Source: Acidobacteriota bacterium (GTDB lineage: Bacteria; Acidobacteriota; Terriglobia; Terriglobales; SCQP01). Taken from it: 46,350 nt of DNA. The translations under genes and the position numbers were made by a program. Below are positions 2 to 34,638 of this stretch, in pieces. The stretch is taken from NCBI GenBank assembly GCA_027451805.1, contig DAIDIF010000051.1, forward strand, positions 1-46,350. The letters are read 5' to 3'. Within the stretch, counting starts at the first letter, position 1; the number at the start of each line of letters is the position of its first letter. Below the pieces are notes generated by a model. The model was not told where the DNA came from, searched no databases, and saw only the letters and a list, made by a program, of their open reading frames with translations.

Positions 2-352
2 GGCGGCGCCATGCTGATCTACAGCCAACTGGACCGCGGCGAGCTGCTGATCGCCGACACCTGCCGCCAACTGATCGAAACCCTGCCCACCCGCATCCAC
101 GACGCCGGCCGGCCGGATGACATCGCCAAGATCAGCGGCGATCCGCTCGATGATTGCATGGACGCGCTGCGCTACGCCCTCTACAGCTTCATCGCCCCGG
201 CGCGCCCCTCCAACCAGAGCGGGTTTGACCCGAACGCCGCCGGCGGCGATCCCACGCTCGCCATGCTCCAGCGGCGGTTGGCGGAGCACCGTTGGCAGCG
301 GCTACAGCAGCCGGCGCGCTACCTCCCGCCGCGCCGCCCCAACCCGCGCTAG
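2..352 (+). CDS. C-terminal fragment resembling a phage terminase large subunit (RNase H-like nuclease end); 5' end outside window
   Basis: Frame is open to the window edge; 'LIYSQLDRGELLIADTCRQLIETLPTRIHDAGRPDDIAKISGDPLDDCMDALRYALYSF' resembles the end of terminase large subunits (RGEL.I...C..LI..LP....D...PDD..K..GDP.DD..DALRY). Motif recognition only. Confidence 0.55.
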   Translation, partial: GGAMLIYSQLDRGELLIADTCRQLIETLPTRIHDAGRPDDIAKISGDPLDDCMDALRYALYSFIAPARPSNQSGFDPNAAGGDPTLAMLQRRLAEHRWQRLQQPARYLPPRRPNPR

Positions 353-1260
353 CCGGCTCGCCACTCCAGGCCCGGCCCCCGCTCCACGATTGCCGCCCGC
401 AGCAGCTCGGCCCGCAGGCCGGCAGCCGACAGTGCGCGAACGGCGGCGGCCTCGGCCCGCGGATACGCCTGCGGCTCGCCCACCATCATCAACACCGAGG
501 GGCCTGCGCCGCTGAGGGCGCAGCCCAGGATGCCCTCGTGCCCGGCGAGCGGCAGCAGCGCCGGCAGCAGCGGGCATACCGCGGCGCGATAGGGCTGATG
601 CATTTTGTCCGTCATCGCCTGCGCCAACAGCTCGCCGCGCCCCAGCGCCAGCGCGTGCAGCAGCAGCGCCTCGTGCTGCAGGTTATGCACCGCATCCGCC
701 CGGCTGTACTGCTGCGGCAAGACCGCGCGGGCTTCCGCGGTCGCGAGCGGCGCCGGCGGCACTGCGACCAACACCGGCCAGTGCACCGCCATCGGAACCT
801 GCAGCCAGGCCACCGGGTCGCCGCCGGCGATCACCAGGCCGCCCCACCAGCAGGCCGCGACGTTATCCGGATGGCCCTCCAGCCGAGCGGCTTCCGCGAA
901 CATTCTTTCCGCGCTCCAGTCCAGGCCGCCGAAGTGCGACGCCAGCGCCAACCCCGCCAGGCGCGCCGCCGCCGACGAGCCCAACCCCTTGCCGATGGGA
1001 ATCTCGTTGTCGCAGCGCAGCGCCAGCGGCGGCGGCGTCCGGCCGGCATCCGCCAGCGTCCGCCGGTACGTTTCCAGTACCAGATGGCCTTCGCGCCGCC
1101 CGCAGATCTCCGCGTCCCTTCCCGCCGCGGCCAAGCTCTCTTCCGCGGCGGCGCTCGCGGCGATGCGCAGAAAGAGACCCAAGGCCAGCGCCGCGGTGTC
1201 GAACCCCGGGCCCAGATTCGCCGAGCTTGCCGGCAGCGCGATCTCAAGCTCACCGCTCAC
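349..1260 (-). CDS. thrB: Homoserine kinase (GHMP family)
   Basis: N-terminus 'ALPASSANLGPGFDTAALAL' and GHMP motif 'PIGKGLGSSAAARLAGLALA'; overlaps the thrC stop by 4 nt (1257-1260). Confidence 0.93.
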   Translation of the reverse strand: MSGELEIALPASSANLGPGFDTAALALGLFLRIAASAAAEESLAAAGRDAEICGRREGHLVLETYRRTLADAGRTPPPLALRCDNEIPIGKGLGSSAAARLAGLALASHFGGLDWSAERMFAEAARLEGHPDNVAACWWGGLVIAGGDPVAWLQVPMAVHWPVLVAVPPAPLATAEARAVLPQQYSRADAVHNLQHEALLLHALALGRGELLAQAMTDKMHQPYRAAVCPLLPALLPLAGHEGILGCALSGAGPSVLMMVGEPQAYPRAEAAAVRALSAAGLRAELLRAAIVERGPGLEWRAG

Positions 1261-2536
1261 GCGCGCTCCAATGCCCGCAGCACCGCTTCGGCGGATGCCT
1301 CCATCGCCGGGGGCAGCGACGCCAGGCCCATGTCGCTTGCATAATCGGGATCCTTCAGCCCGTGCCCGGTGAGAATCAGCACCACGCTCTCGCCCGGCGC
1401 AATCGCACCGGTGCGCGCCAGCTTGCGCGCGCCCGCCAGCGCCGCCGCGGATGCCGGCTCGCAGCCGATGCCCTCGCGCCCGATCGCCTGCTTGGCCGCG
1501 GCGATCTCGGCTTCGCTCACGTCGGTGCAGTAACCGCCGGTTTCGCGCAGCACACGCACCGCCTTCTGCCAGGACGCCGGATTGCCGATGCGGATCGCGG
1601 TGGCGCGGGTCTTGGCCTCGACCGGCGTCAGTTCCCTGCCCTGATGCTCGCGCAAGCTGCGAACCAGTGGATTGGCGCCCTCCGCCTGAATGATGGAGAT
1701 CCGCGGCGCACGCGCGATGAATCCCCAGCGCTGCAGTTCCAGAAAGCCCTTGCCCAGCGCCGACGCGTTGGCCAGATTGCCGCCCGGGACCACGACGTGG
1801 TCCGGCGGCTGCCAGTTCATCTGCTCCAGCAGTTCGGCCGCCGCGGTTTTCTGTCCCTCCAGCCGAAAAGGGTTCATCGAGTTCACCAGATACAGGGAGT
1901 GGCGCGCGGCCACTTGGTGCAGGACACGCATGCAGCCGTCAAAGTCCGTCCGCAGTTGGCAGACCGAGGCGCCGAAATCCAGAGCTTGCGCCAGCTTGCT
2001 CCAGGTGATCTGGCCGGCCGGCACCAGCACCAGGCTGCGCATGCCCGCGCGCGCGGCGTAGGCGGCCATCGAGGCCGAGGTGTTGCCGGTCGAGGCGCAG
2101 GCCAGCCAAGCTCGCCCGGCCTCGCGCGCCTGCGACACCGCCACCGTCATGCCGGTATCCTTGAACGACCCGGTGGGATTCAGCCCCTGATGCTTGGCCC
2201 ACACCCGCTCCAGGCCGGCATCGCGCCCGCAGTGCGGCAGATCATACAGCGGCGTATTGCCTTCGCGCAGCGTCACCGCCTGCCGCGCGTCGCGCAGCAC
2301 CGGCAGCAGCTCGCGAAAGCGCCAGACGCCGCTCTGATCGTCGGCGTGGAACGATGCACGCCGCTCGCGCCAACGCGCGCGCCAAGCGGGTGCGTCCCGG
2401 GGCGTTTCCGCATACACAACCTCCAGCAGATCGCCGCAATCCGGGCAGCGCCAGTCGAAACGTGGCTGCAGCGTCCCGGCGCCGCAGGCGATACAATGCA
2501 ACGTGTGCGCCGGAGCGGCGGCGCCCGATGCCAAGT
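1257..2536 (-). CDS. thrC: Threonine synthase (canonical); start uncertain (TTG near 2536 or 2497)
   Basis: N-terminal zinc-ribbon-like 'CIACGAG...CPDCGD'; PLP motif 'NPTGSFKDTGM'; 'ACASTGNTSASMAAYAARAGM'. The tracked ORF extends to 3059 but would run through the riboswitch region, so an internal start is preferred. Confidence 0.9.
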
Positions 2537-2616: not shown

Positions 2617-2721
2617 CTTATCAAGAGTGGCTGAGGGAACAGGCCCGATGAAGCCACGGCAACCGGCTCCGCAACGGCGGAGCGTCCAGGTGCCAATTCC
2701 TGCCCGCAAGGGAAAGATGAG
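2617..2721 (+). promoter_or_regulatory. SAM-I (S-box) riboswitch aptamer
   Basis: 'CTTATCaagagtggctgagGGAacaggcccgaTGAAgccaCGGCAACCggctccgcaacggcggagcgtccAGGTGCCAATTCCtgcccgcaagggaaaGATGAG': core S-box blocks (gagGGA, GCCC.ATGAA, CGGCAACC, GGTGC.AATTCC) and a P1 stem pairing CUUAUC with GAUGAG (one G-U). Confidence 0.93.
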
Positions 2722-2767
2722 ACGGGGCTGCGCGATCCGAATCCGCCAGCCAATTCCACCGCTTTCA

Positions 2768-2799
2768 CCCCTTCCCTTGCCGGAAGGGGTTTTGCTTTG
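2768..2799 (+). terminator. Intrinsic terminator hairpin of the SAM-I riboswitch expression platform
   Basis: Perfect 8-bp inverted repeat CCCCTTCC-cttgcc-GGAAGGGG followed by TTTTGCTTT, between the aptamer and the downstream ATG at 2819. Confidence 0.85.
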
Positions 2800-2818
2800 G
2801 GCGGAAGAGACGCTGGGC

Positions 2819-4093
2819 ATGAGTTTCGAAATCGGCCTCCTCTGCCGCGACTGCGGCAAACGCTTTCCCACCCAACCGATGGCGGGCTGCGACGAGTGCT
2901 TCGCGCCGTTGGAGGTCGCCTACGACCTCGACGCCATCGGGCACGCGGTAACGCCGCTGGCGCTGCAGCAGCGGCCCCGGACGATGTGGCGCTATCGCGA
3001 ACTGCTGCCGGTGCCGGCCGCCGCTGGAGGCTTCGAACGCCCGGTGGGCGGGACGCCACTGCTCGCGGCGCCGCGCCTGGCGCGGGAGCTGGGAGTGCGC
3101 GAGCTGTATCTGAAAAATGACGCGGTGAATTTTCCCACGCTCTCGTTCAAGGACCGGGTCGTGGCGGTGGCGCTGAGCAAGGCGCGCGAGTTTGGATTTC
3201 GCACCGTGGCCTGCTCCTCCACCGGCAACCTGGCGAATGCGCTCGCGGCCGCGGCCGCGGCGGAGGGGCTGGAGGCCTACATTTTCACGCCCGCCGATTT
3301 GGAAGAGGCGAAGATCTCCGCCACGCGCATCTACGGCGCCCGCCTGATCAAGTTCCACGGCAATTATGACCAGGTGAACCGGCTCTGCTCCGAACTGGCC
3401 GAACGCTACCCCTGGGGTATCGTCAACGTCAACCTGCGTCCGTACTACGCCGAAGGCTCAAAGACGGTGGGCTACGAAATCGCCGAACAGTTGGGCTGGC
3501 GGCTGCCGGGCGCCGTGGTGTGCCCGATGGCCGGCGGGTCGCTGATCGGCAAGATCGCCAAGGCATTTGGCGAGCTTCGGCAGCTTGGCTGGCTGGCTGG
3601 CGGCGATGGCCCGGTGCGCATGTATGGCGCCCAGGCCAGCGGCTGTGCCCCCATCAGCCTGGCGGTGAAGCAGGGCCAGGACGAGATCACGCCGCAGCGT
3701 CCGCAAACGGTGGCGCGCTCGCTGGCGATCGGCAATCCGGCCGACGGCTTCCACGCGGTCCGCGTCATTCGCGACTCCGGCGGATGGGCGGAAGACGTCA
3801 CCGATGCCGAGATCGTCGCCGCCATGCGCCAACTGGCCGAGACCGAGGGCGTCTTCGGCGAAACCGCCGCCGGCGTCACGCTGGCGGTGGCGCACAAGCT
3901 GCTGCGCCAGGGCCGCATTGCACCCGACGCGCCCTTGGTGCTGGTCATCACCGGCAACGGGCTGAAAACCTTGGATGCGGTCCAGGCATGGCCGCAGCCG
4001 ATTCCCGTGCTCGCCCCCAAGCTTCACCACCTGGAAGCGTACCTGCAGGCGCCATTGCCGCCCGCATCGGCGCCCAGCGCCATCCCCGCTTGA
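2819..4093 (+). CDS. Threonine-synthase-like PLP-dependent enzyme (second ThrC paralogue; candidate sulfur-transfer/homocysteine synthase)
   Basis: 'MSFEIGLLCRDCGKRFPTQPMAGCDECFAPLEV' zinc ribbon; PLP motif 'NFPTLSFKDRVVAVALSKAREFG'; 'ACSSTGNLANALAAAAAAEGL'; C-terminal 'TGNGLKTLDAV'. Sits behind a SAM-I riboswitch. Confidence 0.88.
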   Translation: MSFEIGLLCRDCGKRFPTQPMAGCDECFAPLEVAYDLDAIGHAVTPLALQQRPRTMWRYRELLPVPAAAGGFERPVGGTPLLAAPRLARELGVRELYLKNDAVNFPTLSFKDRVVAVALSKAREFGFRTVACSSTGNLANALAAAAAAEGLEAYIFTPADLEEAKISATRIYGARLIKFHGNYDQVNRLCSELAERYPWGIVNVNLRPYYAEGSKTVGYEIAEQLGWRLPGAVVCPMAGGSLIGKIAKAFGELRQLGWLAGGDGPVRMYGAQASGCAPISLAVKQGQDEITPQRPQTVARSLAIGNPADGFHAVRVIRDSGGWAEDVTDAEIVAAMRQLAETEGVFGETAAGVTLAVAHKLLRQGRIAPDAPLVLVITGNGLKTLDAVQAWPQPIPVLAPKLHHLEAYLQAPLPPASAPSAIPA

Positions 4094-4116
4094 CCGTTTG
4101 CCAAAGGAGAACTGTT

Positions 4117-4398
4117 ATGGCCTGCCATGTGCGTATTCCCGCTCCGCTGCAGCGTTTCACCCAAGGCGCCGATGCCGTCGCCTGCGATGCCGCCACTCTT
4201 CCGGCGCTGCTCACCGAGCTCTCCGGACGTTTTCCCGAACTGAAGGACCGCTTGTGCGAGCCCGACGGGCGGCCGCGGCGATTTTTCAACGTCTACGTCA
4301 ACGACGAGGACATTCGCTTTCTGGGCGGCAACACGTACCAGTTCGCGCCCGGGGACGACGTGCTCATCCTGCCGTCGATCGCGGGTGGAACCGCCTAG
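4117..4398 (+). CDS. ThiS/MoaD-family ubiquitin-like sulfur-carrier protein with C-terminal GG-TA tail
   Basis: 93 aa; 'FNVYVNDEDIRFLGGNTYQFAPGDDVLILPSIAGGTA*' is the typical MoaD/ThiS C-terminus with two residues after GG; RBS AAAGGAGA about 7 nt upstream of the ATG. Confidence 0.88.
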   Translation: MACHVRIPAPLQRFTQGADAVACDAATLPALLTELSGRFPELKDRLCEPDGRPRRFFNVYVNDEDIRFLGGNTYQFAPGDDVLILPSIAGGTA

Positions 4399-9010: not shown

Positions 9011-10198
9011 ATGTTTCGCGCCTATTTGGATAACAACGCCAGCGCCCCGATGGTGCCGGAGGTGCTGCAGGCGATGCTGCCCGCGCTGCAGGGTGAGCTG
9101 GGAAATGCCAGCTCCATTCATCAGCGCGGCCAGGCGGCCAAGGCGGCGCTGGAATCCGCGCGGTCGGAGGTGGCGGCGCTGATCGGCGCGCGACCGGCGG
9201 AGATCGTCTTTACCAGCGGCGGCACCGAAAGCGACAACTTGGCGATTCGCGGCGCGGTGGAGGAATGGCAGCAGCGGCATCCCGGCGCCGCGCCCGCCCA
9301 TCTGATCACCACCCGCATCGAGCATCACGCCGTTCTGCACGTTTTCGAAAGCCTTGAGCGGCGCGGCCATCCCGTGACCTATGTGCCTGCCGGACCCTCC
9401 GGCGTTGTCGCTCCCGCGGCGGTTGCTGCCGCACTGCAGCCCGACACCGCGCTGATTTCGGTGATGATGGCCAACAATGAGACCGGCGTGCTTCAGTCGG
9501 TGGAAGCTGTGGGCGAATTGGCCCGAGCCGCCAAGGTCGCCTTCCACGTGGACGCGATTCAAGCCGTGGGGCGGGTGCCGGTGGACGTGCAGCGCATCGG
9601 CTGCCATCTGCTCAGCCTCAGCGGCCACAAGATTCATGCTCCGGCGGGCGTGGGGGCGCTCTATGTGCGGCGCGGCACCCGCCTGCAGCCGCTGCTGCTC
9701 GGCGGCCATCACGAACGCGACCGCCGCGCCGGTTCGGAGAATCTGCCCGGCATTCTCGGTTTCGGCGCCGCCGCTCGGCTGGCGCGCCAGGAACTCGACG
9801 TGGCGGCGGCGCGCATGGCCGGGTTGCGCGACCGTTTCGAGGCTGGCCTTGCCGCTGCGGTCGCCGATCACGAGGTGGTGGGGCGTGGCGCGCCGCGGGT
9901 CGCCAACACCAGCAACGTCTGCTTCGCCGGTATCGAGGGCGAGGCGTTGGTGATCGCCCTGGATCTGCACGGCGTTTGCGCTTCAACCGGCGCAGCCTGC
10001 TCGTCGGGCGCGATCGAACCGTCGCACGTCCTGCTGGCCATGGGCTATACCCGCGCCCAGGCGCGCGCCTGTGTCCGCTTCAGCCTCGGCCGCCAGACTA
10101 CCGAAGCCGACATCACCGCCGTACTCGAGGTGCTGCCGGGTCTGGTGGAGCGTCAGCGAAAGCTCTCCGGCGCCGGAGCGTTGGCACGGTCGGCATGA
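9011..10198 (+). CDS. Cysteine desulfurase (NifS/IscS family)
   Basis: 'YLDNNASAPMVPEV', 'FTSGGTESDNLAIRG', 'SLSGHKIHAPAGVGALYVRRG', active-site loop 'STGAACSSGAIEPSHVL'. Confidence 0.93.
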   Translation: MFRAYLDNNASAPMVPEVLQAMLPALQGELGNASSIHQRGQAAKAALESARSEVAALIGARPAEIVFTSGGTESDNLAIRGAVEEWQQRHPGAAPAHLITTRIEHHAVLHVFESLERRGHPVTYVPAGPSGVVAPAAVAAALQPDTALISVMMANNETGVLQSVEAVGELARAAKVAFHVDAIQAVGRVPVDVQRIGCHLLSLSGHKIHAPAGVGALYVRRGTRLQPLLLGGHHERDRRAGSENLPGILGFGAAARLARQELDVAAARMAGLRDRFEAGLAAAVADHEVVGRGAPRVANTSNVCFAGIEGEALVIALDLHGVCASTGAACSSGAIEPSHVLLAMGYTRAQARACVRFSLGRQTTEADITAVLEVLPGLVERQRKLSGAGALARSA

Positions 10199-11319
10199 AC
10201 GAAGCCGGCGCACCCTTGGCCGTGGCCATGTCGGGCGGGGTGGACAGCTCCACCGTGGCCGCCATGCTGCACGCGGAAGGCGGACCGCTGGTGGGTCTGA
10301 CCATGCAGCTCTGGAACCACCGCCGTTTGGCCGGTGCCCCGGGCATTCCCGAACACGCCTCCGGCCGCTGCTGCTCGCCCGACGATGTCCACGACGCCCG
10401 CCGTATTGCCGAACACATCGGGATTCCTCACTACGTGGTCAATCTCGAGCAGCGCTTCGAGCAGACCGTGGTACGGGACTTCGTGCAGCAATATCGTGCC
10501 GGCCGTACCCCGGTGCCTTGCAGCCATTGCAATACCGCCGTCAAATTTGATCAACTGCTGGCCACCGCCCGTCAGATCGGCGCCGAAGCGGTCGCCACCG
10601 GACATTACGCCCGCGTGCGCTTCCATGCGGAGACCGGGGGCTACGAGCTGCTCCGTGCGGTGGACGACGCCAAGGACCAGACGTTCTTTCTCTGGGGCCT
10701 GAGCCAGGAACAACTCCAGCGCGCCCGCTTTCCGCTGGGCGGGTTGCAGAAGAGCGAGGTACGCGCCCGCGCGGCGCAGTTTGGCCTTTCGGTCGCGGGC
10801 AAGCCGGATAGCAATGAGATCTGCTTTGTCCCCGGCGGCGACTACGCCGCCTTTCTGAAGGCTTATGCTGAGGAACAGGGCGACCCGGTTGCCGCCGGCG
10901 GTGGCGACGTGGTCGCCCGGGACGGGCGCGTGCTCGGCGCCCACACCGGCGTGCATCGTTTTACCGTGGGCCAGCGCAAGGGACTCGGAATCGCCACCGG
11001 CGAGCCGCTGTATGTCATCGAGCTGGACGCCGCGCGCAACCGCGTGATCGTCGGCCCCGACCAGGCGCTGCTCGCACGCACGCTCACCGCCAGCCGCTGC
11101 CACTGGATCGGCGGCGCCGCGCCCGCGCCGCCTACCCGCGTCGAAGCGCGAATCCGCCATCGCCACGCGCCCGCTCCCGCGTGGGCCGAGCCGCTGCCCG
11201 GCGCGCGCTTGCGGGTCGAGTTCGACCATCCGCAGCGCGCCATTACCCCCGGACAGGCGGTGGTGCTGTATCAGGGTGAGCGCGTTTTGGGCGGCGCCTG
11301 GATCGATGCCGCCGCCTGA
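10195..11319 (+). CDS. mnmA: tRNA-specific 2-thiouridylase MnmA
   Basis: 'VAMSGGVDSSTVAAMLHAEG', 'GRTPVPCSHCNTAVKF', 'ATGHYARV', 'DQTFFLWGL', 'GKPDSNEICFVPGGDY', 'HTGVHRFTVGQRKGLGIA'; 4-nt ATGA overlap with the cysteine desulfurase. Confidence 0.94.
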   Translation: MNEAGAPLAVAMSGGVDSSTVAAMLHAEGGPLVGLTMQLWNHRRLAGAPGIPEHASGRCCSPDDVHDARRIAEHIGIPHYVVNLEQRFEQTVVRDFVQQYRAGRTPVPCSHCNTAVKFDQLLATARQIGAEAVATGHYARVRFHAETGGYELLRAVDDAKDQTFFLWGLSQEQLQRARFPLGGLQKSEVRARAAQFGLSVAGKPDSNEICFVPGGDYAAFLKAYAEEQGDPVAAGGGDVVARDGRVLGAHTGVHRFTVGQRKGLGIATGEPLYVIELDAARNRVIVGPDQALLARTLTASRCHWIGGAAPAPPTRVEARIRHRHAPAPAWAEPLPGARLRVEFDHPQRAITPGQAVVLYQGERVLGGAWIDAAA

Positions 11320-31680: not shown

Positions 31681-34638
31681 ATGGAGCGGCGGCGACAAGA
31701 AGTTGACGAACTCTTCAATGCCGCACTCCATTGCCCGCCGGCGCAACTGCAAGCGCTGCTGAACCGTTCCGACTCCGACATCAGACTCGAAGTCGAGCGT
31801 ATGCTGGCTGCCGGCCTTGCGTCGGTGCTCCACCCCGGCATGCGGCTGGGGCGCTACGAGATTGAAGCCGTTCTGGGCGCCGGAGGGATGGGGCGAGTCT
31901 TTCGCGCGCGCGACACCCAGCTAGGCCGGCCGGTCGCCATCAAGGCTTCCAGTGGCACGTTCCAGGCCCGCTTTCAGATCGAGGCGCGCGCCATCTCGGC
32001 GCTCAACCACCCCCATATCTGCACCCTTTACGACGTCGGCCCCAATTATTTGGTCATGGAATTGGTGGAGGGCCAAACCCTGGCGGATCGGCTCAAGCCG
32101 GGCCCGCTGCCGCACAACCATGCGCTGGGTTTTGCGATCCAAATCGCCGCGGCGTTGGAGGAGGCGCACTCCCACGGCATTGTGCATCGCGATCTCAAAC
32201 CAGCCAATATCATGCTTACCCGCCACGGCGTGAAGGTGTTGGATTTTGGGCTGGCGCGGCTGCTCGATGAAACCAGCGTGACCGAAGCGCGCATGGTTCT
32301 CGGAACGCCCGCATACATGGCGCCGGAGCAGGTTGAAGGAGGCGAGCCCACGCCGGCCGCCGATCTGTTCTCCCTCGGCGTGGTTCTGTATGAAATGGTG
32401 ACCGGAGCTTTGCCGGTTCCGGGCGCTTCGCTTGGCCGGATGCTGGCCAGCGGCGCCGCCCCGGCTATCGTGCCGATAACGCGGCAGCGGCGCCACCTGT
32501 TGCCTGAACTCGACCGCCTGTTTCAGAGCCTTGTGGAAAAGGACCCGGCCCGCCGCCCCCCCTCGGCTCACGCCGCGGAGAGCCGCTTGACGGCGATGCT
32601 ACCCCGCGAGGCGACGGCGCCGCGGCGCGCGCGACGCTGGTTCGCGATCGGCGGGGCTGTGGCGTTCGCCCTCGCCTTGCTCACCGGCAGCCTGCTTTTT
32701 CGGCGCATGCAACGCATTCGCTGGGTTCGCGAGCAGGCCATGCCGGCCATCGCGCAACTCGCGCCCGCGCAGCCCCTGGCCGCGTTCCGGTTGCTGCGAG
32801 AGGCCGACGCCATCCTGCCCGGCGATCCCCAACTCGCTCGTCGGCAAGCCGCCTCCACCCAGCTCATCGCCGTCACCTCGGACCCCCCGGGCGCCACGGT
32901 CGAAATTCAGGACTATCTCAACCCGGGAGCTTGGTTCACCCTCGGCACCACGCCGCTGCGTCGGGTCCGTGTTCCGCGCGGGTACTTCCGCTGGCGCGTC
33001 TCCAAACCGGGTTTGGGCAGCTTTATTTCCGCTCCGATCACTTCGCCCGCGATGCGGTTCCCCATAGACGCTGTACACCGCCTCGCCGCTTCTGGCATGG
33101 TGCCTGTCTCAGGCGGCTCCTGGGAGGAGTTGATCGACTTCCTCGGCTGGGTGAGAGCAAAAAACCTGCCCAATTACGACATGGACAAGTTCGAAGTAAC
33201 CAATGCCCAGTATCAGCGATTCGTCGATCAAGGCGGGTACCGGAACCCCCGATTCTGGCGGCACAAGTTCGTCCTCGAGGGCAAGACCCTGAGTTGGACT
33301 CAGGCCATCAGCCGCTTCCGCGACCGTACGGGCCGGCCCGGCCCGGCGAGTTGGGAAGCCGGCCACTACCCCCTCGGCCAGGCGGACTTCCCCGTCTCCG
33401 GCGTGAGTTGGTATGAAGCCGCAGCCTACGCCGCCTTTGCTGGCCAGAGTCTTCCCGTGCTGGCGCAGTTCTACCGCGCCGCTCCGGACGATCTGGCCTA
33501 CTTTGCAGCCAACGCCGGCAATTTTGGCGGCAGCGGCACGGTGGCTGTCGGCGCACGGAACTCAGTCGGTCCATTTGGCACCTACGACATGGCGGGAAAC
33601 GTCCGGGAATGGAGCCGCTCCGCCGTCGGTGCGGACCGATTCATTCTCGGCGGCGCCGTGGGCACGCAAACCTATCAGGCATTCGATCCCGAAGCCCTGC
33701 CGCCGTTCGATCGCTCGCCGATGAACGGCTTTCGCACGGTGCGCAATCACGCGCCGCTGCCGCTGGATGCGCTCGCGCCCCTGGTGCGCCAGAGACGGAG
33801 TTTTTCTCACGTTGCGCCCGCCTCGGACGCTGTATTTCAGGCATACAAGGCCATGTACGCCTACGAACCGGTCCCGCTTCGCCCCCGCGCCGGCGCAGCG
33901 CGGAACGCCCCGGACTGGACCGTGCAAAAGGTCACGATCGACGCCGGCCATGACGGCGAGCGGCTTCCCATGTACCTGTTTTTACCCAAGCACGTGCAGC
34001 CCCCCTATCAATCGGTCGTGTTCTTTCCCAGCGCCCGGGTCGAACTGCTTCGGGACAGCCGTCATCTCGGCGACATGCAATTCGTGGACTACATCATCAA
34101 AAACGGCCGCGCCCTGCTGTACCCGATCTATCTCGATACTTACGAACGCAACGTCGATCCTCTCCAGTTGGTGGGTTCGATCGGCGATCTCCAGTTGACC
34201 ATGAAATGGTCCAAGGAGGTCCGCCGCGCCGTCGACTACCTGGACACGCGCAAGGACATGGACGCCTCCAAGATCGCCTACCTCGGCGTCAGCATGGGCG
34301 CGGCATATGGTGTCATCTTCACCGCGCTCGAACCCCGCTTCCGGGCGGTGGTCTTTCTCGACGGCGGCTTCTTCCTGACGTCCCCTCCCAAGGGACGTGA
34401 CCAGGTGGACTTCGCCCCTCGCGTGACCAAGCCCGTGCTGATGGTCAACGGCAAATACGATTTCACCTTCTCGCCGGATCGCGCCCAAGCGCCCATGTTC
34501 CGCGCCCTGGGAACCGACCCGGCCGACAAGAAGCGCGTCGTTCTCGACACCCCGCACGACGTCAGTCAGCAGAGAGCCGAGCTTTCCCGGGTTGTGCTTG
34601 CCTGGCTGGACCGCTATTTGGGCGCGGTGAGGTACTAG
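31681..34638 (+). CDS. Transmembrane Ser/Thr protein kinase - PEGA-like - FGE/SUMF1-like - alpha/beta-hydrolase fusion
   Basis: Kinase 'GAGGMGRVFRARDTQLGRPVAIK', 'GIVHRDLKPANIMLT', 'VLDFGLARLL', 'GTPAYMAPEQVEGG'; TM 'FAIGGAVAFALALLTGSLLF'; 'TSDPPGATVEIQDY...TTPLRRVRVPRGYFRWRVSKPG'; FGE-like 'MDKFEVTNAQYQRFVDQGGY..PVSGVSWYEAAAYAAFAG..GTYDMAGNVREWSRS..NGFRTV'; hydrolase 'YLGVSMGAAYG', 'VNGKYDFTF', 'TPHDV'. Confidence 0.9.
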   Translation: MERRRQEVDELFNAALHCPPAQLQALLNRSDSDIRLEVERMLAAGLASVLHPGMRLGRYEIEAVLGAGGMGRVFRARDTQLGRPVAIKASSGTFQARFQIEARAISALNHPHICTLYDVGPNYLVMELVEGQTLADRLKPGPLPHNHALGFAIQIAAALEEAHSHGIVHRDLKPANIMLTRHGVKVLDFGLARLLDETSVTEARMVLGTPAYMAPEQVEGGEPTPAADLFSLGVVLYEMVTGALPVPGASLGRMLASGAAPAIVPITRQRRHLLPELDRLFQSLVEKDPARRPPSAHAAESRLTAMLPREATAPRRARRWFAIGGAVAFALALLTGSLLFRRMQRIRWVREQAMPAIAQLAPAQPLAAFRLLREADAILPGDPQLARRQAASTQLIAVTSDPPGATVEIQDYLNPGAWFTLGTTPLRRVRVPRGYFRWRVSKPGLGSFISAPITSPAMRFPIDAVHRLAASGMVPVSGGSWEELIDFLGWVRAKNLPNYDMDKFEVTNAQYQRFVDQGGYRNPRFWRHKFVLEGKTLSWTQAISRFRDRTGRPGPASWEAGHYPLGQADFPVSGVSWYEAAAYAAFAGQSLPVLAQFYRAAPDDLAYFAANAGNFGGSGTVAVGARNSVGPFGTYDMAGNVREWSRSAVGADRFILGGAVGTQTYQAFDPEALPPFDRSPMNGFRTVRNHAPLPLDALAPLVRQRRSFSHVAPASDAVFQAYKAMYAYEPVPLRPRAGAARNAPDWTVQKVTIDAGHDGERLPMYLFLPKHVQPPYQSVVFFPSARVELLRDSRHLGDMQFVDYIIKNGRALLYPIYLDTYERNVDPLQLVGSIGDLQLTMKWSKEVRRAVDYLDTRKDMDASKIAYLGVSMGAAYGVIFTALEPRFRAVVFLDGGFFLTSPPKGRDQVDFAPRVTKPVLMVNGKYDFTFSPDRAQAPMFRALGTDPADKKRVVLDTPHDVSQQRAELSRVVLAWLDRYLGAVRY

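Follow-up and report, generated by a model that had tools for sequence, protein, structure and literature searches.

A SAM-I riboswitch, a threonine synthase-like gene and a sulfur-carrier gene in an Acidobacteriota bacterium: a predicted MetM/MetO operon for homocysteine synthesis

Introduction

Why should a SAM-I riboswitch precede a gene of the threonine synthase family, and why should that gene be followed by one for a small sulfur carrier, when an ordinary threonine synthase gene lies immediately beside the pair? The question was raised by the first few kilobases of a 46,350-nucleotide stretch of DNA from an Acidobacteriota bacterium (GCA_027451805.1, contig DAIDIF010000051.1), the whole of which is referred to here as the window. 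The sequence-only reading of this locus had proposed that the enzyme would make homocysteine from O-phosphohomoserine and a carrier thiocarboxylate under the control of SAM, and had overlooked that such a route was already in print. The reaction is that attributed to MetM, a Streptomyces homocysteine synthase that converts O-phosphohomoserine to homocysteine (Hasebe et al. 2024, Appl Environ Microbiol 90:e01247-24, as described in PMC12172450). According to PMC12172450, metM of S. albulus is preceded by a SAM riboswitch and accompanied by metO, the gene of a sulfur carrier, and cyanobacteria have homologues of MetM. With the route from O-phosphohomoserine and a carrier published in 2024 from Streptomyces, the gene pair is very probably a further, well-supported example of it and no new pathway; the novelty is confined to a new member and to variants of the operon. 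The names metM and metO are used below for the genes of the window.

A riboswitch and two genes

The aptamer, read earlier as 2617-2721, was confirmed by Infernal at 2615-2723 on the forward strand (Rfam RF00162, 81 bits against a gathering threshold of 44.4, E 1.2e-17), and a search of the whole source genome, a MAG of 3.16 Mb and 95% completeness, found SAM-I nowhere other than in front of metM-metO. Between the aptamer and the metM ATG lies the presumptive expression platform, a terminator-type hairpin on the same strand (2767-2797) with a 9-bp stem (2767-2790) and a T-rich tail, TTTGCTTT, in good agreement with the intrinsic terminator that had been placed at 2768-2799. None of 100 shuffles of the 95-base interval from aptamer to ATG equalled this hairpin, and a generic hairpin scan across 2.2 kb gave no excess over shuffles. 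Similar T-tailed hairpins stand at the equivalent position in several relatives (L115, L116, L119, L122, L125, L134, L140 and L192), and a comparable one was not found in 6 other relatives with a comparable interval between aptamer and ATG.

The metM gene (2819-4093, forward strand; ATG at 2819, stop at 4091-4093) was correctly recognized as ThrC-like, its product scoring 248 bits with PF00291 and 260 bits with the thrC model TIGR00260, above the cut-off of the latter, and 45 bits with cysKM. Among domain families only PF00291 was matched, i.e., there was no Cys_Met_Meta_PP family match. The nearest solved structures by sequence are threonine synthases, and because of these matches the fold of MetM, that of a fold-type-II PLP enzyme with its PLP lysine at Lys111, can be taken as fixed.

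Directly downstream, metO (4117-4398, forward strand; ATG at 4117, stop at 4396-4398) encodes a 93-residue carrier whose assignment to the ThiS/MoaD/CysO kind held up, with 44.9 bits to PF02597 (ThiS); the closest matches of known structure are CysO of M. tuberculosis (3dwg) and a member of the ThiS/MoaD family (4n6e). MetO ends in -SIAGG-TA, and because of the two residues, TA, that follow Gly-Gly it would need trimming. Carriers with residues beyond Gly-Gly were present in 9 of 10 loci with a JAMM gene nearby versus 31 of 60 others (Fisher p 0.036), a weak association. In two relatives (L140:7275-7787 and L161:7275-7787), both with SAM-I upstream, MetO is fused to a NIL domain (PF09383), which is known from methionine transporters; the tail perhaps serves methionine sensing or product feedback, or, as an alternative possibility, is cut off after Gly-Gly. 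Fusions of enzyme and carrier that were suspected from long open frames proved to be CysO-like carriers adjoining MoeB genes.

The canonical thrC-thrB pair reported to diverge from these genes is indeed there. The ordinary thrC (1257-2528, reverse strand, start codon provisional) scored 277 bits with TIGR00260 and has the standard active-site residues, and thrB (349-1260, reverse strand; TIGR00191, 229 bits) encodes a homoserine kinase, the product of which, O-phosphohomoserine, is presumably a substrate shared by ThrC and MetM. Farther along the window, a class-V aminotransferase resembling cysteine desulfurases lies beside an MnmA-type tRNA thiolase (9011-10198 and 9976-11319), and one reading frame (31681-34638) joins a protein kinase to a domain of the FGE-sulfatase type and to what may be a hydrolase.

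An altered active site

An alignment of 109 MetM rows with 12 comparison rows (11 distinct), numbered on the Tth threonine synthase, set the MetM proteins well apart at the catalytic center. In all 109, Tth Thr88 is replaced by Leu (Leu138 of the window enzyme), Asn157 by Arg (Arg207), Arg160 by Tyr (Tyr210) and Arg242 by Ala (Ala303), and nearly as uniform are the changes of Gly64 to Val (Val114; 107 of 109) and Ser155 to Asn (108 of 109). Tth Gly58 has become Leu in 97 rows and Phe in 9, and Asn188 is Gly or Ser across the family. The window enzyme thus has Leu138, Tyr210, Gly239 and Ala303 in place of the threonine synthase residues Thr88, Arg160, Asn188 and Arg242, with the PLP lysine, Lys111, retained. 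Several of the replaced positions presumably contact the phosphate of the substrate in threonine synthase, and therefore substrate binding in MetM should differ. The 109 relatives, from about ten phyla, formed one clade apart from the threonine synthases (SH-aLRT 99) in a quick tree with long branches, in which the depth and the internal order of the clade are unsure. Of actinomycete enzymes the tree covered MetM of Nonomuraea, which grouped within the clade and has a long branch.

Conservation of the operon

The pairing of ThrC-like and ThiS-like genes with SAM-I that the earlier reading had pointed to recurred in a survey of 80 named loci, chosen as the best-scoring MetM relatives, not at random, and many of them from Acidobacteriota. 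A same-strand carrier gene was found at most 5 kb from metM in 74 of these loci and at most 400 nt downstream in 65, and SAM-I lay upstream of metM in 53. The groups represented include Acidobacteriota, Planctomycetota, Verrucomicrobiota, Kiritimatiellota, Nitrospirota, Omnitrophota, Margulisiibacteriota, Binatota, Dormiibacterota and several labelled Deltaproteobacteria; an actinomycete locus, in Nonomuraea (L195), has SAM-I, MetM (52%) and MetO in the order of the window.

Across the phylum Acidobacteriota, MetM was present in 28 of 119 genomes, and 16 of the 28 had SAM-I, which in every case shared the strand of metM and lay upstream of it, at a distance of 89-372 nt in 14 genomes and about 2.3 kb in the other 2 (G018 and G117). 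In the latter two loci (L200 and L201) SAM-I heads a row of genes in which a ThiF/MoeB-type E1 and a cysteine desulfurase come before metM and metO; several Planctomycetes loci likewise contain SAM-I, MetM, carrier, E1 and cysteine desulfurase. In four Acidobacteriota loci (L119, L131, L134 and L135) the arrangement is SAM-I, metM, (metO) and a homoserine kinase, confirmed as thrB in L119, and the presence of thrB in such operons points to O-phosphohomoserine as the substrate. In a Nitrospira locus (L149) about 1 kb, with a CysK/M-like gene in it, separates SAM-I from the metM that follows.

Sulfur and methionine genes elsewhere in the genome

Family searches of the 95%-complete MAG found no match to MetX at E 1e-30, no MetA and no HcyBio, nor did they find MetE (PF01717) or the MetH activation domain (PF02965). 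No genome, not even among the controls, attained the curated cut-off of the MetX model (500 bits), and thresholds of 200 and 140 bits, chosen after inspection of the scores, were used instead. With MetX-like scores of at least 140 bits, MetA and HcyBio as markers of a homocysteine route, 2 of 28 genomes with MetM were positive versus 46 of 91 without it (Fisher p 1.6e-5, in a test that ignores shared ancestry). Of the Cys_Met_Meta_PP family the genome has two members, on contigs C123 and C150. The best scores of the C123 enzyme were as a gamma-lyase/desulfhydrase or gamma-synthase, and both enzymes fell below all listed NCBIfam cut-offs; they could run transsulfuration.

The JAMM protease and ThiF/MoeB-type E1 that carrier-dependent synthesis had led one to look for are both present, on a contig of 3257 bases (C47; L012), beside a CysO-like carrier ending in GGSA and a CysM that the contig end truncates to its C-terminal part, the E1 being of the MoeB/MoeZ type with a rhodanese part. 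This cluster is a predicted second protein-thiocarboxylate pathway of the genome, and its JAMM and E1 could serve MetO too. It can be tentatively suggested, at somewhat less than even chances, that cysteine and homocysteine are both made from protein-bound sulfur with this one JAMM and one MoeZ-type E1, two carriers of the form -GG-[ST]A (the CysO-like one and MetO), and a SAM-I riboswitch governing the methionine branch alone. A third ThrC-like protein is encoded on contig C53 (L011:7831-8994; NF006050, 565 bits); it has a long branch and appears to be without some of the usual threonine synthase residues.

Discussion

The linkage of enzyme, carrier and SAM-I, the E1, cysteine desulfurase and homoserine kinase genes of related operons, the altered active site and the failure to find MetX, MetA or HcyBio in the MAG together support the proposed carrier-dependent synthesis of homocysteine, and the pair in the window is very probably a MetM/MetO operon. 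Weighing against this are the two Cys_Met_Meta_PP enzymes of the genome and, for the step that follows homocysteine, the failure to find MetE or the MetH activation domain in a MAG of 95% completeness. On all features that can be tested by sequence it matches that kind. As in Streptomyces, there is a ThrC-like PLP enzyme, a sulfur carrier and an upstream SAM riboswitch; the differences are that the pair in the window is from another phylum and has a predicted activity, that in its MetO two residues follow Gly-Gly, and that E1 and JAMM are encoded elsewhere in its genome, with a CysO-like carrier. The carrier, a relative of CysO, and the logic of JAMM and E1 recall the CysO-CysM-Mec system of Mycobacterium, of which C47 carries a CysM-JAMM-CysO-MoeZ counterpart, whereas the PLP enzyme of the window is a relative of ThrC, not CysM, is under SAM-I control, and has homocysteine as its predicted product. 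In the HcyS route of Wolinella a carrier thiocarboxylate, as predicted for the window, is likewise the sulfur donor for homocysteine, but the enzyme there is of the MetY type, of fold type I, and uses acetylhomoserine, unlike the fold-type-II ThrC relative found here. With threonine synthase (TIGR00260) MetM shares its fold, the PLP lysine motif SFKDR and the presumed substrate, and differs in its replaced active-site residues and its separate clade.

That last resemblance allows MetM to be viewed as a second threonine synthase, or synthase/deaminase, a duplicate whose regulation by SAM would keep threonine and methionine in balance, with the carrier serving another enzyme. The score above the thrC cut-off and the nearest solved structures are in keeping with this, as is the ThrC of Microcystis, which has 51.6% identity to S. 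albulus MetM and reportedly works both as a threonine synthase and as a threonine deaminase without fully acting as MetM in vivo (PMC12172450). Membership of the family is therefore no guarantee of MetM activity, and by this example some members may be bifunctional. Such a role in the window is nevertheless very improbable: an ordinary thrC with standard residues adjoins metM, every relative has MetM-specific residues where threonine synthase has its own, and the carrier is linked in 74 of 80 loci, with E1 or cysteine desulfurase joining many of the clusters.

Two further readings keep homocysteine as a product of the cell and assign the genes otherwise. MetM could use O-phosphohomoserine with free sulfide, MetO being an accessory; in vitro, comparable PLP enzymes can often use sulfide, and 6 of the 80 loci are without a carrier gene within 5 kb. 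The persistence of the carrier elsewhere, and the linkage of E1 and cysteine desulfurase in Planctomycetes and in G018 and G117, leave this account with little credence. The least likely, in our estimation, is that homocysteine comes from transsulfuration of O-phosphohomoserine with cysteine by a plant-like cystathionine gamma-synthase, the C123 or C150 enzyme, and that the window pair has another product. The genome does have those two Cys_Met_Meta_PP enzymes, yet its single found SAM-I precedes metM-metO and not their genes, and their scores, below the listed cut-offs and, for C123, as much those of a gamma-lyase/desulfhydrase, do not single out such a synthase.

What was observed here is the riboswitch, a conserved gene pair, an enzyme with a changed active site, and genes for E1 and JAMM on another contig; around these the working of a MetM/MetO operon can be sketched. 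For its substrate, sulfur donor, product and catalytic steps we infer from the published relative and the operon context. ThrB would make O-phosphohomoserine, the JAMM protease would trim MetO to its Gly-Gly end, and the MoeB/ThiF-type E1 would adenylate it on the way to a C-terminal thiocarboxylate, the form of MetO that is said to be the sulfur donor in Streptomyces. MetM would then eliminate phosphate from O-phosphohomoserine on PLP, the thiocarboxylate sulfur would add at the gamma carbon, and hydrolysis would release homocysteine. At high SAM levels the riboswitch would favor the terminator, and metM-metO would be switched off.

Automatic annotation would label such enzymes threonine synthases, and methionine synthesis in many uncultured bacteria would be left with a gap. 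Residues Leu138, Arg207, Tyr210 and Ala303 (window numbering), together with the operon marks of SAM-I, carrier, E1, desulfurase and homoserine kinase, can serve to recognize MetM in Acidobacteriota, Planctomycetota, Verrucomicrobiota, Nitrospirota, Omnitrophota and others, and would allow better predictions of methionine prototrophy.
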